Source: Sphingobacterium wenxiniae (GTDB lineage Bacteria; Bacteroidota; Bacteroidia; Sphingobacteriales; Sphingobacteriaceae). Taken from it: a stretch of 64,000 bases of DNA. The DNA is taken from positions 372,001-436,000 of the forward strand of contig NZ_FOZZ01000002.1 in NCBI RefSeq assembly GCF_900116225.1, read 5' to 3'. A model generated the notes under the pieces. It saw only the letters and a list, made by a program, of their open reading frames with translations, was not told the origin of the DNA and made no database searches. A program made the translations under genes and the position numbers. Positions 15,275-34,964 of this stretch are shown in pieces (within the stretch, counting starts at the first letter, position 1; each line of letters opens with the position of its first letter).

Positions 15275-16468
15275 TTAATAACTATTTGTGCTTTCACGTC
15301 TCTGTTGGGCAATGCGCTTTATCGCCAGTTCCACATTGCCGTCCAGTTCGGAAGCCAGTTGCATGACTTCCATTTTTTCGGTTTCCTCTGTGGTGTATGC
15401 GAAATACTCTTCGAGCGAAACCTCTGTGGCATACACGGCGGAATGCGTACCGCCAAGCCCAATCCATACCTCTTTGTAAAGCCTTGACGGGTCGTTGTTC
15501 TGATTGATGGAAAGGATTTGGGATTTTTCCTTTTCTGTAAGCCCCAACATTTCCTGTATCGCATCGAATTTGTTCATGTACTTGCGTTGGTCAAGCAGGA
15601 TTTTACAGTCGGAATTGTTGATGATACTTTCCTTTACCACGGGTGACTGGATGATGTCGTCCACTTCCTGCGTGACCACGATAGCCTCACCAAAAAATTT
15701 GCGGACGGTCTTAAACAGGTACTTGATGTACTCCGCCATTCCCTCTTTGGCTATGGCTTTCCACGCTTCCTCAATCAGTATCATTTTGCGCACACCTTTG
15801 AGCCTGCGCATCTTGTTGATGAATACTTCCATAATGATGATGGTCACTATGGGAAAGAGGATTTTGTGGTCTTTAATCGCATCAATTTCAAACACGATAA
15901 AGCGTTTGGAAAGCAGGTCAAGTTGCTTGTCGGAGTTCAACAGATAGTCGTATTCTCCACCCTTGTAATAGGGTTCAAGCACGTTCAGAAAATTTGCGAG
16001 GTCAAAGTCTTTTTCCCTTACCTGTTTGTCTTCTAGTACCTTTTTATAGTCACCCTTTACGTACTCGTAAAATCCGTTGAAAGAGGGATATTCATCGCTT
16101 TGCCTGATACGGTCGATGTAACCGCTCACGGCATTGGACAATGCCACTTCCTCTGAACGGGTCGGCGGTTCATCGTCACGCTTCCAAAGCGTAAGGATGA
16201 GCGTTTTGATACTTTCCCTTTTCTCGATGTCGAATACGCCGTCATCCGTATAAAATGGATTGAATGCTATCGGGTTGTCTTCGGTGTAGGTAAAATACAC
16301 ACCGTCTTTGCCCTTTGTCTTCCCCTTAATCAGTTCGCACAATCCTTGATAGGAGTTGCCCGTATCGACCAATAGTACATGAGAGCCTTGCTCATAATAC
16401 TGCCTCACCATGTGATTGGTGAAGAATGATTTTCCACTTCCAGTTTGGAGGGTTGGCGGGCTACTCAA
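15275..16468 (-). pseudogene. traG: traG 3' part: C-terminal half of VirB4-like transfer ATPase
   Basis: This frame carries the C-terminal ATPase half of TraG: the end of Walker A (GSGKSFFTNHMVRQYY), Walker B (MILIEEAWKAIAKEG, about residues 231-245) and later motifs (IVVTQEVDDI, CKILLDQR). In intact elements it is one protein of about 830 aa with the preceding frame. Here a 50-bp insertion (16444-16493) in the Walker A codons breaks the gene. The half can only start from a TTG that overlaps the upstream stop (TTGA), which would give LQTGSGKS and lack the first Walker A glycine. I consider it a disrupted gene, though coupled re-initiation giving a split protein cannot be excluded. Confidence 0.85.
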
Positions 16469-16493
16469 TTAAGAATAGCCCGCCAACCCCCAG
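16444..16493. repeat. 50-bp hairpin insertion in the Walker A codons of traG
   Basis: Perfect 14-bp arms (GGGTTGGCGGGCTA at 16450-16463, TAGCCCGCCAACCC at 16476-16489) flank a 12-nt loop. CCAG occurs on both sides (16440-16443 and 16490-16493), like a 4-bp target duplication. Removing 16444-16493 restores the frame and a standard GPSGSGKS Walker A. Confidence 0.85.
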
Positions 16494-17832
16494 ATGGGCC
16501 TAACACGAAGCGGTTCCGATTTGTGATAATGCCCCGCTTCATAGGCAAATCTGATATATCCAAATGGATGGGCTTTCCTGTCAATCGGTCTGCCATCTTG
16601 ATACCGAAAGGCGATGGCGAATTTTGGTAGTTGGTTTCCTCGGTGAAGAAACACAGCGCAGGTTCAATGAACGTGTAAAAACTTTCCTCTGCCGGAAAGT
16701 CACCTGCATTTCCTGCCATGCCTGCCCAATACAGTGTGGCAACATCCACCGTGTTATGCCTCGGCTTGCATTCCATCAAAGCGAGCGCACTGCCCGTGTC
16801 GTTCTTTAGCTGTTTGAGTTCGTTCGGGTCATCCGACCACGCCATCACGTTGAAATGCGCACGGATAGAGGACAGCCCGAAGCTGTGCGCTTCGTTCAGA
16901 TACCTTTCTATCCATTCTTTGTTAATCTGATTGGCACGGCTGTACCTCGCCAGTGAGTGCATATTACGGGCTGACTTTTCAAACTTGCGCAGGTTCTCAT
17001 CGCTGTTGTCCAAAAACAGATACTGGTTATAGATATGGTTACAGCTAAGGAACAAGCCAACCGGAGAGGCAAAGGACAACAGGCAATCGCTCCTGTCCGT
17101 GGACAGCTTTTCATACCTCGAATTGGACGATACCGTATTGGGCAAATCGTCCGTATCGGACAGCGTGTGCAGGCACAGCCTTTTGTTTCCGATACGCACA
17201 TCCTCACTGCCCAAAGCTATATCCTGCATAGGCGTTCCGGCTTCCCTTGACAGGGTAAGGTACTGTTCGAGCAATCCCTGCCTGTCGCCTGTTCCGATGA
17301 TGTCATCCTCGGTCAAGCGTTCCAGTTTCACAAAACCGCTGTCATTGATAATGCGCTCAAACTGTGCGACCGCTTCCATAAACCTGCGGACGGTTTCTTT
17401 ATCCCTTATTTCTTTCGGAATAAGGACACCTTTGCAAAGCGAACTAAAGTTGCTCTGCATCCGCATCCGCTCTTTGGTCGTCTTGGTCAAAAAAAGATAG
17501 CAGTAATGGTTTAAAAAAGGACGTTCGTTGAAATGTTGCTGATAGGATTTGGCAAGGAAACTCAACCCGTCCTGTGCCATATCCGGCGCATAACTTTCCT
17601 TGATGTACCAGTCCTGTTTGTGGACAATGGTGTAATCCGGCAATGTCTTGATAGCCTTATGCCAAGCCGAATGGATGGCATCGTACTCTGCCGATGCTAC
17701 CGTGAACAGTTCCGGCAGTTGTACCCGAAAGCAAGCCGTGATGTCTGCATCCTTTGATATGATGCAGTTCTGTTCCACCGCCAGTAATGGAAACTTGCTC
17801 TCCAACGTTGTGGCTTTTCCTGTATTTCTCAT
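16465..17832 (-). pseudogene. traG: traG 5' part: N-terminal half of VirB4-like transfer ATPase
   Basis: The 455-aa frame has the N-terminal TraG/VirB4 domain (MRNTGKATTLESKFPLLAVE, IISKDADITACFRVQLPELF) and runs into the start of Walker A (RFVLGPSG), where translation enters the 50-bp insertion and stops after GWRAILN. The start at 17832 overlaps the traF stop by 4 nt. TraG powers substrate transport and pilus assembly in the mating channel, so the break predicts a transfer defect unless the halves complement each other. Confidence 0.85.
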
Positions 17833-18796: not shown

Positions 18797-21700
18797 ATGA
18801 AAATAGGTATTTTACATTTGACTGATTTACACATAGAAAATGAGATATTTTCCGAGCGAATTGATAAACTAACTAAAGCAATAGAATACGATATAAAACA
18901 GATAAGTCACATTTACTTAGTGTTGTCTGGTGATATTGCCAATTATGGAAGAAAATCTGAATTTGACAATGCTAAAGTTTTCATAAGTAAGCTAAAAGAA
19001 AATTTGAAATCAATTGGTAAGCTTTTGCAAATCGAAATCATTGTAGTACCTGGAAATCACGATTGTTGTTTTGATAATGTTAAAAAGACTAGAAAATCAA
19101 TTCTAAATGATTGTAAAACTGACATTATTGAGGAAGAAGATTATTTTCTTGATGCTATGGCAGTTCAATCTGATTTCTGGAACTTCACTAATGAATTGAC
19201 CAACATTAAAGAACAATATCTCGCTTCATATAAATATGATTTTAGACCTCATATTGACTTCAAAGTTTCATTTCATTGTTATAATACAAGCTGGTTAACC
19301 GAAATTCATGAAAAACAGGGTAGCTTAATTGTTCCCGAAAACAAATTTTTACAAAATGAAAATGGAGAATATGTTATATCTGTTTTTCACCATCCAATTG
19401 ATTGGCTGTCAGCAAATACCTCAAGAAATAATAAACAAAGGTTTGAAGAGCATTTAATAAACACTTCCAATCTAGTAGTCTATGGACATGAACACGATAA
19501 AGGCAAATCGAAAGCAATAATTCAACAAAAGCAAAATGTAGTTTTTTGTGGAGGAAAAGCATTTAATATTTCTGACTTGAGAAACACAGGATTCTCTTAT
19601 TATGAAATTGACTTAACCGATAAGTCTATTAATATAAAGTCGTTTAATTTTAATAATGATATATATGAGGTTGAGTTTGAGGATAATCATAAAATAATTG
19701 CAAAGAATAAACGAAATTTTGTTTTAAGTGAGGATTTTGAAACTAAGATTTCAAGTCTCAATATTCCATTAAAACATTCTAAAAAAGAAAGGTTATTAAT
19801 TTCTGACGTTTTTGTTTACCCTGATCTTGAGCCACTAATTGATGATGATATCGTTCAATATCCTAATTCGTCCGAATTAATTGAAAAGGTTAAAAATAAC
19901 AACTCTTCCAAAATATTGATTGAAGGTGCCGATCAGTGTGGTAAGACATCATTACTGTATGTATTATATAATAGATTTTATGAGTTAGGATTTAATCCGC
20001 TATATTTAAGGGGTAAGTATTGCAATGAGACAAACATTAAAAAACTGATAAAAAGGTCTTTAAAAGAACAGTATGATAGCGACAACGTAGATTTATATTT
20101 TCAACAGGATAAGAGAATAATTCTTTTGGATAACTTTCATAAATCTTCTTTAAATTCAAAGTATAAAAAAAATTTAATTGAGTCAATAAACGCTCATTTT
20201 GATTACATTATATTAACATCAGATAATACTTACAGCTCAAGAAATGTTACTGAAGAAGCAACGAGTTTAAAGGATTATTCAAAATACAAATTGCTTCCAC
20301 TGGGTCATGAAAAAAGAAGTGAACTAATTGAGCAATGGTTAATGATAGGTGAGAATAAACTCACAGTTCAAGAAGAAGTAATTTTATCCGAAGTCAAGTT
20401 ACGATTCAATGAAATTGACGCATTGATCGGAAATCGTTTAATGCCATCATATCCTATTTTTATTTTAACACTGCTTCAAAGTTTAGATGAGAACTTGCAA
20501 AACTTCTCTCAAACTTCATATGCCAATATTTATTTGGTTTTAATTAAATCCGGTCTAATCAAGGAAGGTATTAAGGATAGTGTTTTAACTAGTTTACTTA
20601 ATGTATTAAAGGAATTATCATTTTATTTATACAGTGAGTTGAAAGCTTCGACTTTTACCCCAACTCAATTTGAAGAATTTGTGCATGAATATTCTAAAAA
20701 ATTTTTTAGACATGAAAAGCTTACGATTCATAAAATTCTTTCTGTACTATGTAATTCAAATATTTTAAAATTTGACGATGAACATTATACATTCTCATAT
20801 AAATACATATATTATTTCCTTATTGCTCAAAAAATTTCATCGGAAATTGATAGCTATCAAGAATTAATTTATGAACTGTGTAATAATATTCATCTTGAAG
20901 TAAATGCTAACATACTAATATTTTTATCACACCATTCTAAGGCACAAATTTTAATTGATAATATTGTATTAACTAGTCAAATACCGTTTGAAAAATACAC
21001 TCCTATAAGCTTAAATAAAGATGATGAGTTTGTACAATTTATAACTGAATTTACAAATGAAATCAAACATGAGATAATTGAAGAAATTAATCCAAAAGAT
21101 GAAGTAAAGAAAGATCTTAAAAGAAGAGATGACAATGAAAGAAAAAGAAATAAAAGTGCTGATTTAGATTTAGAAGAGGATGACGACAGCGTTTTACCAA
21201 TTGAAGTAATTGAGATGAGCCAGGCTTTTAGAACCGTTAAAATAATAGGTCAAATTGTAAAAAATCAAAGCGGTGATTTTGAAAAAGATAAATTAATAAA
21301 TCTAGTTGAATCCGCTTATAACACTATGTTCAGATTTTTAGGCTTTTATTCCGAAATATTAGTAAGAGATAAAGAATTATTAATCGACTCACTGGTTGAA
21401 AATATTATAGAAAAAGAAAGTCATAAGCAACAAGTCAGTATTGATAATAGAGTAATTGAAAAAGCTGTAAAGAAAATGCTTCAATTCATTTCCTGGAGAA
21501 TTTGTATAGACAGTATGTCGAATCTTATGTTTTCAGTTGGAACAAAAGGTCAAAATGAATTATTTGAAAAAGTCAACTTAAGAATGGACTCAACAGCATC
21601 AAAACTCGTAACATTTGCCATAAAAACTTTCTATGATAAAATTGATACAAAAGAACTTTCAAAGCTATTCGACGACGTTAAAGATAACTATTTGGCTCAG

Positions 21701-21829
21701 TGTATTTTACGAGAATATATAAAAAGATATTTATATACGAACTATATTGAACGTAGTAAAAGAGATCAAATAATTAATATTGCTGGATTTAGTAAACAAA
21801 AATTAATACCGAAAATGAAAACGGTATAA
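18797..21829 (+). CDS. Metallophosphoesterase fused to a STAND-type P-loop NTPase (1010 aa), candidate defence protein
   Basis: The N-terminal 300 residues form a complete calcineurin-like phosphoesterase: TDLHIE (D10, H12), LSGDIANYG (GD 45-46), PGNHD (86-89), FHHP (197-200) and GHEH (230-233). A P-loop NTPase follows, with Walker A GADQCGKT (377-384) and Walker B IILLDNFH (441-448), and then about 500 residues of mostly helical sequence with a very charged stretch near 775-797. An effector, STAND switch and helical sensor in one chain is the layout of many NLR-like antiphage proteins. The gene is strongly AT-rich, opposite in direction to the tra genes, and splits the traD-traE junction, so it is acquired cargo. 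Substrate unknown; a defence role is inferred. Confidence 0.75.
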   Translation: MKIGILHLTDLHIENEIFSERIDKLTKAIEYDIKQISHIYLVLSGDIANYGRKSEFDNAKVFISKLKENLKSIGKLLQIEIIVVPGNHDCCFDNVKKTRKSILNDCKTDIIEEEDYFLDAMAVQSDFWNFTNELTNIKEQYLASYKYDFRPHIDFKVSFHCYNTSWLTEIHEKQGSLIVPENKFLQNENGEYVISVFHHPIDWLSANTSRNNKQRFEEHLINTSNLVVYGHEHDKGKSKAIIQQKQNVVFCGGKAFNISDLRNTGFSYYEIDLTDKSINIKSFNFNNDIYEVEFEDNHKIIAKNKRNFVLSEDFETKISSLNIPLKHSKKERLLISDVFVYPDLEPLIDDDIVQYPNSSELIEKVKNNNSSKILIEGADQCGKTSLLYVLYNRFYELGFNPLYLRGKYCNETNIKKLIKRSLKEQYDSDNVDLYFQQDKRIILLDNFHKSSLNSKYKKNLIESINAHFDYIILTSDNTYSSRNVTEEATSLKDYSKYKLLPLGHEKRSELIEQWLMIGENKLTVQEEVILSEVKLRFNEIDALIGNRLMPSYPIFILTLLQSLDENLQNFSQTSYANIYLVLIKSGLIKEGIKDSVLTSLLNVLKELSFYLYSELKASTFTPTQFEEFVHEYSKKFFRHEKLTIHKILSVLCNSNILKFDDEHYTFSYKYIYYFLIAQKISSEIDSYQELIYELCNNIHLEVNANILIFLSHHSKAQILIDNIVLTSQIPFEKYTPISLNKDDEFVQFITEFTNEIKHEIIEEINPKDEVKKDLKRRDDNERKRNKSADLDLEEDDDSVLPIEVIEMSQAFRTVKIIGQIVKNQSGDFEKDKLINLVESAYNTMFRFLGFYSEILVRDKELLIDSLVENIIEKESHKQQVSIDNRVIEKAVKKMLQFISWRICIDSMSNLMFSVGTKGQNELFEKVNLRMDSTASKLVTFAIKTFYDKIDTKELSKLFDDVKDNYLAQCILREYIKRYLYTNYIERSKRDQIINIAGFSKQKLIPKMKTV

Positions 21830-34819: not shown

Positions 34820-34915
34820 GTCTGCATTTTAACCCCCATGCCCAGGCTAACGAAAAAATGCAGACGGGTCGGGCTATCCGCTATATCTTTTGCGGATCTG
34901 CGAGGACCGCAAAAG
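34820..34915. terminator. Two adjacent hairpins between convergent rteC and topB
   Basis: GTCTGCATTTT (34820-34830) pairs with AAAATGCAGAC (34855-34865), and CTTTTGCGG (34887-34895) pairs with CCGCAAAAG (34907-34915). They lie between convergent genes and may act as bidirectional terminators. Confidence 0.5.
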
Positions 34916-34964
34916 GATGTCGCTTCTATCCCTCACGCTGTATGCCGTCCAAAAAACAAAACAT

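Follow-up and report, generated by a model that had tools for sequence, protein, structure and literature searches.

How can the gene of a transfer ATPase be cut within the codons of its nucleotide-binding loop and nonetheless appear intact on either side of the cut? This question is raised by traG in the window analysed here, a stretch of 64,000 nucleotides from Sphingobacterium wenxiniae (contig NZ_FOZZ01000002.1, positions 372,001 to 436,000). On the minus strand, which corresponds to the mRNA sense, a 50-nt insert cuts the gene within the Walker A motif (GPSG^SGKS). The site reads GGC CCA TCT GGG [GGTTGGCGGGCTATTCTTAATTGAGTAGCCCGCCAACCCTCCAAACT] GGA AGT GGA AAA TCA, and when the bracketed stretch GGTTGGCGGGCTATTCTTAATTGAGTAGCCCGCCAACCCTCCAAACT and one Gly codon are taken out, the Walker A motif G P S G S G K S is obtained; the 50 nt comprise 47 nt and one of the two Gly codons. 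The plus strand carries perfect 14-mer arms, GGGTTGGCGGGCTA at 16450-16463 and its reverse complement at 16476-16489, separated by a 12-nt loop. Within two mismatches of the arm, three 14-mers were observed (two of them the arms themselves) versus 0.17 expected by chance. The tetranucleotide CCAG stands at 16440-16443 and again at 16490-16493. The upstream ORF stops at a TGA 21 nt past the GGG codon (16467-16465), with a TTG overlapping the TGA, and the downstream ORF is in a different frame. The earlier note on this DNA was exact as to the 14-bp arms, the loop, the 50 added base pairs, the stop that they cause, and all coordinates. Its description of an otherwise intact traG of about 830 codons, broken at the nucleotide-binding loop, agrees with the NCBIfam profile TIGR03783 (TraG, 829 positions), of which the upstream ORF covers positions 1-451 and the downstream ORF 447-828, so that nothing is lost at the junction. 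The PF19044 profile is split by the insert at positions 43/38, and the insert-free relatives L178 and L183 contain a single traG ORF of 836 codons.

Table 1. Features of the interrupted traG in the window, with the proposed roles of its parts
Feature	Position	Strand	Basis or remark
traG 5' part, 448 codons, ATG to take-off GGG, ending ...NRNRFVLGPSG	16489..17832	-	TIGR03783 1-451/829
Proposed take-off codon GGG (Gly, 4th residue of GPSGSGKS)	16489..16491	-	GGG at all inserts found
Proposed 47-nt untranslated gap (50 nt including landing codon)	16442..16488	-	Relatives have 46-50 nt; no gap in insert-free traG
Gap hairpin, 17-bp stem, arms 16473-16489 and 16450-16466, loop UUAAUU (6 nt)	16450..16489	-	Folds, covariation
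In-frame TGA, which would stop ribosomes that fail at take-off	16465..16467	-	In-frame stop in all 29 rows
Proposed landing codon GGA; decoding would restart at AGT (SGKS...)	16439..16441	-	GGA in all insert-bearing alleles
traG 3' part, SGKS and remaining P-loop ATPase domain	15275..16441	-	TIGR03783 447-828/829; PF19044 38-412/413
Putative additional stem-loop upstream, reaching to the take-off codon; seen in clade 1 only	16490..16554	-	Pairing and covariation

An assembly error, which the earlier note had entertained, is refuted by the presence of the same insert in about 23 genomes, several of which are single-contig. After removal of identical records we count about 26 loci in these genomes, which represent several bacterial families; some of the genomes were equated with named records on the grounds of identical sequence. 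A scan of 84,980 species genomes yielded 12 insert loci, and the further genomes were found with a covariance model and a DNA search. Seven genomes of the window's genus, including the window's own, carry the insert at the same traG codon. The hosts comprise S. psychroaquaticum, S. multivorum, S. corticibacter and S. humi (two copies) in Sphingobacterium, and also Parapedobacter defluvii, Niabella defluvii, a Chitinophagaceae MAG, Flavobacterium erciyesense, Chryseobacterium pennae, Chryseobacterium sp. ZHDP1 and Myroides sp. 1354. The most remote carrier, G633 (allele L079), encodes, within a diverged yet broadly collinear tra operon, a TraG whose identity to that of the window is 45% in the N half and 64% in the C half. 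The search of the window's own genome and of related elements, proposed as a check of the locus, showed that the insert recurs, always at the same codon of traG; over all searches, the above-threshold matches are confined to that codon, save for an antisense echo of the hairpin. The insert is not a dispersed repeat. In 145 genomes of the genus of G633 the core pattern occurs only once, two hairpin patterns had no match in IMG/VR, and the insert matches no Rfam family at gathering thresholds. In PLSDB, 25 records match the traG flanks, mostly in two pieces or in one half, at about 65-80% identity. The open-access literature (subscription journals were outside the scope of the search) yielded no report on bypassing in traG or on the insert.

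The 13 distinct inserts are 49, 50, 51, 52 or 53 nt long, and therefore the two halves of traG stand in all three relative frames. Each variant has an in-frame stop ahead of the 3' half, including the 51-nt insert, where the halves share one frame with an in-frame TGA between them. This stop (TGA or TAG) begins 24-27 nt from the start of the take-off codon in all 29 rows, i.e. 21-24 nt after that codon, and the codon that directly follows the GGG is GGT, GGG or GTT. Over 700 nt downstream, the alleles of strain ZHDP1 (52 nt) and S. multivorum (53 nt) share 97% identity, and apart from the insert both are intact. Common to all inserts are GGG before the gap, GGA after it, the in-frame stop and the stem; at the take-off position insert-free genes have GGT (16), GGA (9), GGG (3) or GGC (3). 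The border repeats differ among alleles, from CTGG down to GG. The CCAG duplication of the earlier note is thus present in the window allele, but it is not a feature of the element, since other alleles have CCGG..TTGG or CTGG..ATGG; likewise, the TTGA overlap of stop and start is genuine in the window, but some alleles lack the TTG. Among the 48 tRNA genes found in the genome of the window (collapsed ones may be missing from the assembly), the Gly anticodons are UCC (1) and GCC (3), with no CCC, so that a single tRNA would read both GGG and GGA. An insert-free traG is also present on another contig of the same genome; for this reason the insert-bearing copy might be dispensable in the host strain, which we count against bypassing.

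Both halves show the signature of a maintained gene. Nearly all comparisons among insert-bearing alleles give dN/dS of 0.02-0.06 in either half (0.03-0.06 in the 5' half of clade 1), with dS often near or above 1; the range for insert-free pairs is the same. For the pair L038/L039, the values are 0.026 in the N half (dS 1.35) and 0.028 in the C half (dS 1.17), and for L083/L039 the C half gives 0.023 at a dS of 1.44. Values outside this range come from L084/L086, for which the N half gives 0.127 and the C half 0.013. The motif SGKSFFTNH directly past the gap is identical in all 22 alleles examined. These values point to strong purifying selection on both halves of traG while the insert is present, and the low dN/dS among insert-bearing alleles therefore argues that ribosomes read the 3' half in the frame of TraG. 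Some insert-bearing copies are dead, as L051, L058 and L080 have damaged 3' halves. One of these, L058 from Flavobacterium erciyesense, breaks off 85 codons past the gap and has a transposase-like ORF close by.

In four insert types (L039, L052/L163, L059/L159 and L079), no ATG, GTG or TTG lies in frame from the last stop to Walker A, which leaves no restart that would keep the motif. Selection combined with the lack of a restart codon thus implies that the halves are joined, in translation, in RNA or in DNA. These alleles also weigh against a split gene, in which two TraG polypeptides would be made, the second by re-initiation at the TTG overlapping the TGA, as the earlier note had contemplated. 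Such an arrangement would account for the selection on both halves, and a TTG in frame with the 3' half is indeed available in the window and in most alleles. However, the 3' halves of the four types without a start are intact, that of L039 being equally constrained, and the relative frame of the halves varies. Moreover, restart at the TTG would yield ...LQTGSGKS, from which the first Walker A glycine is missing, and would leave the invariant GGG/GGA and the compensated stem unexplained. We consider a split gene very unlikely.

When the insert is folded as RNA, its stem lengthens to 17 bp and its loop shrinks to 6 nt; two more G-C pairs follow beyond a bulge at the base of the stem. The folding of a 161-nt region has a z-score of -7.8, with none of 200 shuffles being as stable. 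Over 12 variants, the gap hairpin has 17 pairs with 99% of cells paired and 3 compensatory pairs, a result reached by none of 500 shuffles. The 51-nt insert of G633 (L079) forms the stem with three double compensatory changes; since all three double changes come from L079, they testify to one lineage only. In clade 1, an upstream stem-loop of 19 pairs can be drawn (98.8% paired, 2 compensatory pairs, 14 of 500 shuffles), and it is moderately more stable than synonymous recodings, of which 7-35 in 1000 equal the natural sequences, the insert-free F_L002 giving a similar 23 of 1000. Because this stem-loop is not present in clade 2, we treat it as a lead only. Eight residues before take-off, all insert-bearing alleles of clades 1 and 2 encode NRNRF, and insert-free genes and L079 encode NRNKF; the Arg codon of NRNRF belongs, in clade 1, to the upstream stem.

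We propose, going beyond the possibilities raised in the earlier note, that the insert is a translational bypass element, which ribosomes skip as they do in gene 60 of phage T4, and we would put the probability of this reading at roughly three in four. Frameshifting, re-initiation, decay and precise excision fit the data poorly, and programmed ribosome bypassing fits best. The features of bypassing found at traG are two ORF parts with a frame-independent non-coding gap, border codons matched to one tRNA, and a conserved structure at take-off; a stop directly after the take-off codon is absent, and so we regard the case as a variant of the T4 type rather than a strict likeness. According to the proposed scheme, traG would be translated up to GGG, the fourth Walker A codon, where peptidyl-tRNA-Gly(UCC) would occupy the P site (the codon and the tRNA content being observed). 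The very stable hairpin that starts at GGG would then stall the ribosome, and the in-frame stop located 21 nt on would end failed take-offs; here the structure and the stop are observed, and stalling is the presumed consequence. Next, the peptidyl-tRNA would release GGG, the ribosome would cross 46-50 nt, mostly hairpin, and the same tRNA would re-pair with GGA. Finally, decoding would restart at the Ser codon to give an unbroken GPSGSGKS within a complete TraG some 836 residues long, as the selection on both halves suggests; it is from this selection that we infer, indirectly, a joined TraG made from the gap-containing mRNA. Inserts of 49, 50, 51, 52 and 53 nt could all work, because the codon and not the frame would set the landing.

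The halves could alternatively be joined by removal of 47-53 nt from the mRNA and ligation of the ends, as in a minute intron-like element. Frame independence, selection and a hairpin with the junctions at its base are all compatible with such removal. Nevertheless, the insert is shorter than group I or group II introns and lacks the Rfam match mentioned above, and removal does not require tRNA-matched border codons. We know of no bacterial splicing machinery for an element this minute, and we regard removal at the RNA level as very unlikely.

A joining in DNA has to be considered together with the history of the insert. In the N-half tree, its distribution calls for five gains or losses, of which well-supported branches force at least three, and the window allele is 90-95% identical to the insert-free L010 and L019. 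Between clade 1 and its nearest insert-free relatives, codon identity falls to 0.17 in the eight codons directly upstream of the insert, although more than 25 codons away it is about 0.55. When clade 1 is compared with clade 2, it is 0.94 in the first 8 codons downstream and 0.57 upstream, compared to about 0.35-0.45 in most bins farther off. This flank pattern is the expected trace of transfer of the insert with short flanks, although RNA constraint could also contribute, and recombination in place of homing could likewise produce it. Together, the phylogeny and the altered flanks suggest that the insert moves between ICEs, being repeatedly gained or lost, with recombination, or homing to the same conserved codons, as the probable route. 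A palindrome flanked by short direct repeats is a classic substrate for slippage, and the repeats at the site (CTGG in the window) would permit a phase switch, in which occasional precise deletion of the palindrome restores traG. The divergence near the site speaks against it, as does the lack of any insert-less allele with insert-type flanks in the genomes of the genus that were searched and in 296 genomes of a second family; since rare restoration would also be unable to keep dN/dS at 0.03, a phase switch appears highly improbable. Equally little credence can be given to a parasitic insertion that has recently killed the gene, for which the further damage in L051, L058 and L080 might be adduced, but which is at odds with the strong purifying selection on the 3' half among insert-bearing alleles at dS above 1, with the compensatory changes in the stem, and with the absence of further damage, in the stretch examined, from the other sequence-distinct loci. 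The idea of a tiny inverted-repeat element holds insofar as a small element in the gene has been repeatedly gained or lost, but not in the sense of a transposon footprint with a 4-bp target duplication, and the footprint of an insertion sequence or MITE can be dismissed, since the searches gave no copies at other sites and the alleles have no constant target-site duplication. Programmed frameshifting or readthrough fails as well, since the inserts stand in three frames, the frameshift product would have 16-17 extra residues in Walker A, and no fixed event could serve all five lengths.

The surroundings of traG were inspected in gene maps, in which we saw neither a homing endonuclease adjoining traG nor any extra neighbour gene common to the insert-bearing elements. 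A D12-class adenine methyltransferase (PF02086) is encoded between traE and traF in L038, L039, L058, L080, L181 and L182, which make up a part of clade 2 only; it was rejected as a partner gene, as clade 1, clade 2b and L079 lack it. The traD-traE interval is a variable cargo slot, which in the window (18797-21829, plus strand) is occupied by a DS8-family anti-phage protein (NF053861, 928 bits), and in L033-L037 and L054 by different genes, including, as judged by eye, a pair of UvrD-like and OLD-like proteins and PHP-like proteins. Elsewhere in the window, a Flavo-1 RNA (RF01705, 53.9 bits) is located at 34863-34943 on the minus strand. The traG stretches of L038 (S. multivorum) and L160 (genome G1327, from the genus of G284) are identical in spite of their different families, which suggests a recent transfer of the ICE.

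It is instructive to compare the traG insert with known systems. In T4 gene 60, the ribosome with peptidyl-tRNA-Gly passes a 50-nt gap between two GGA codons, helped by structures at and upstream of take-off (PMC11194080, PMC5009743), and its processivity is high and constant for gaps up to 56 nt (PMC11194080). The traG site has in common with it a non-coding insert that is 50 nt long when counted with the landing codon, a Gly-to-Gly transition, stops in the gap, a stem-loop at take-off, the need for both halves, and a tie to mobility, which on the T4 side is a homing endonuclease (PMC5009743, PMC11194080). On the other hand, the codons of traG are GGG/GGA rather than GGA/GGA, so that the tRNA is common but the codons are not identical; there is no stop in the first A site and no known nascent-peptide signal; and the gap forms one long 17-bp stem, while that of T4 is described as largely unfolded. 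Furthermore, the traG insert varies in length and occurs in many cellular genomes, as opposed to one phage gene, and it resides in a different gene with no sequence relation seen. Given these differences, we claim for it a mode of action like that of gene 60, but no homology with that gene. In the mitochondria of Magnusiomyces capitatus, 81 bypassed inserts occur in many genes, and their bypassing seems, according to a review, to be independent of mRNA context (PMC5009743). They resemble the traG insert as short out-of-frame blocks in essential genes that are passed over in translation, but they concern mitochondrial ribosomes and many genes, whereas the traG insert keeps to one codon, a compensated hairpin and fixed codons. 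A 29-nt hop has been reported for an adhesin gene of Prevotella loescheii (PMC5009743). This bacterium also belongs to Bacteroidota, but its hop is shorter and a single case without follow-up, and is set beside the traG insert by description only. Inteins and self-splicing introns, too, occur in nucleotide-binding motifs, in the most conserved codons of ATPases, with a scattered distribution and a requirement for precise neutralising; in contrast to them, the traG insert has only 49-53 nt and is devoid of catalytic domains, be they RNA or protein.

Programmed bypassing of high efficiency has been described for one phage gene and for a few yeast mitochondria, and other cases have long been expected (PMC5009743). 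It is tempting to view the inserts as a family of mobile bypass elements of cellular bacteria, which would target the Walker A codons of ICE transfer ATPases by homing and survive there since ribosomes skip them, possibly tuning the amount of TraG and so conjugation, a view on which we are evenly divided. The 13 natural variants, with their compensatory changes and indels, occur in bacteria that can be cultured, and the phenotype of the gene concerned is measurable, which makes it possible to test the skipping of a gap folded as a long stem, the determinants of the landing site, and the spread of the inserts. If the inserts are bypassed, gene callers would label working transfer genes as pseudogenes.
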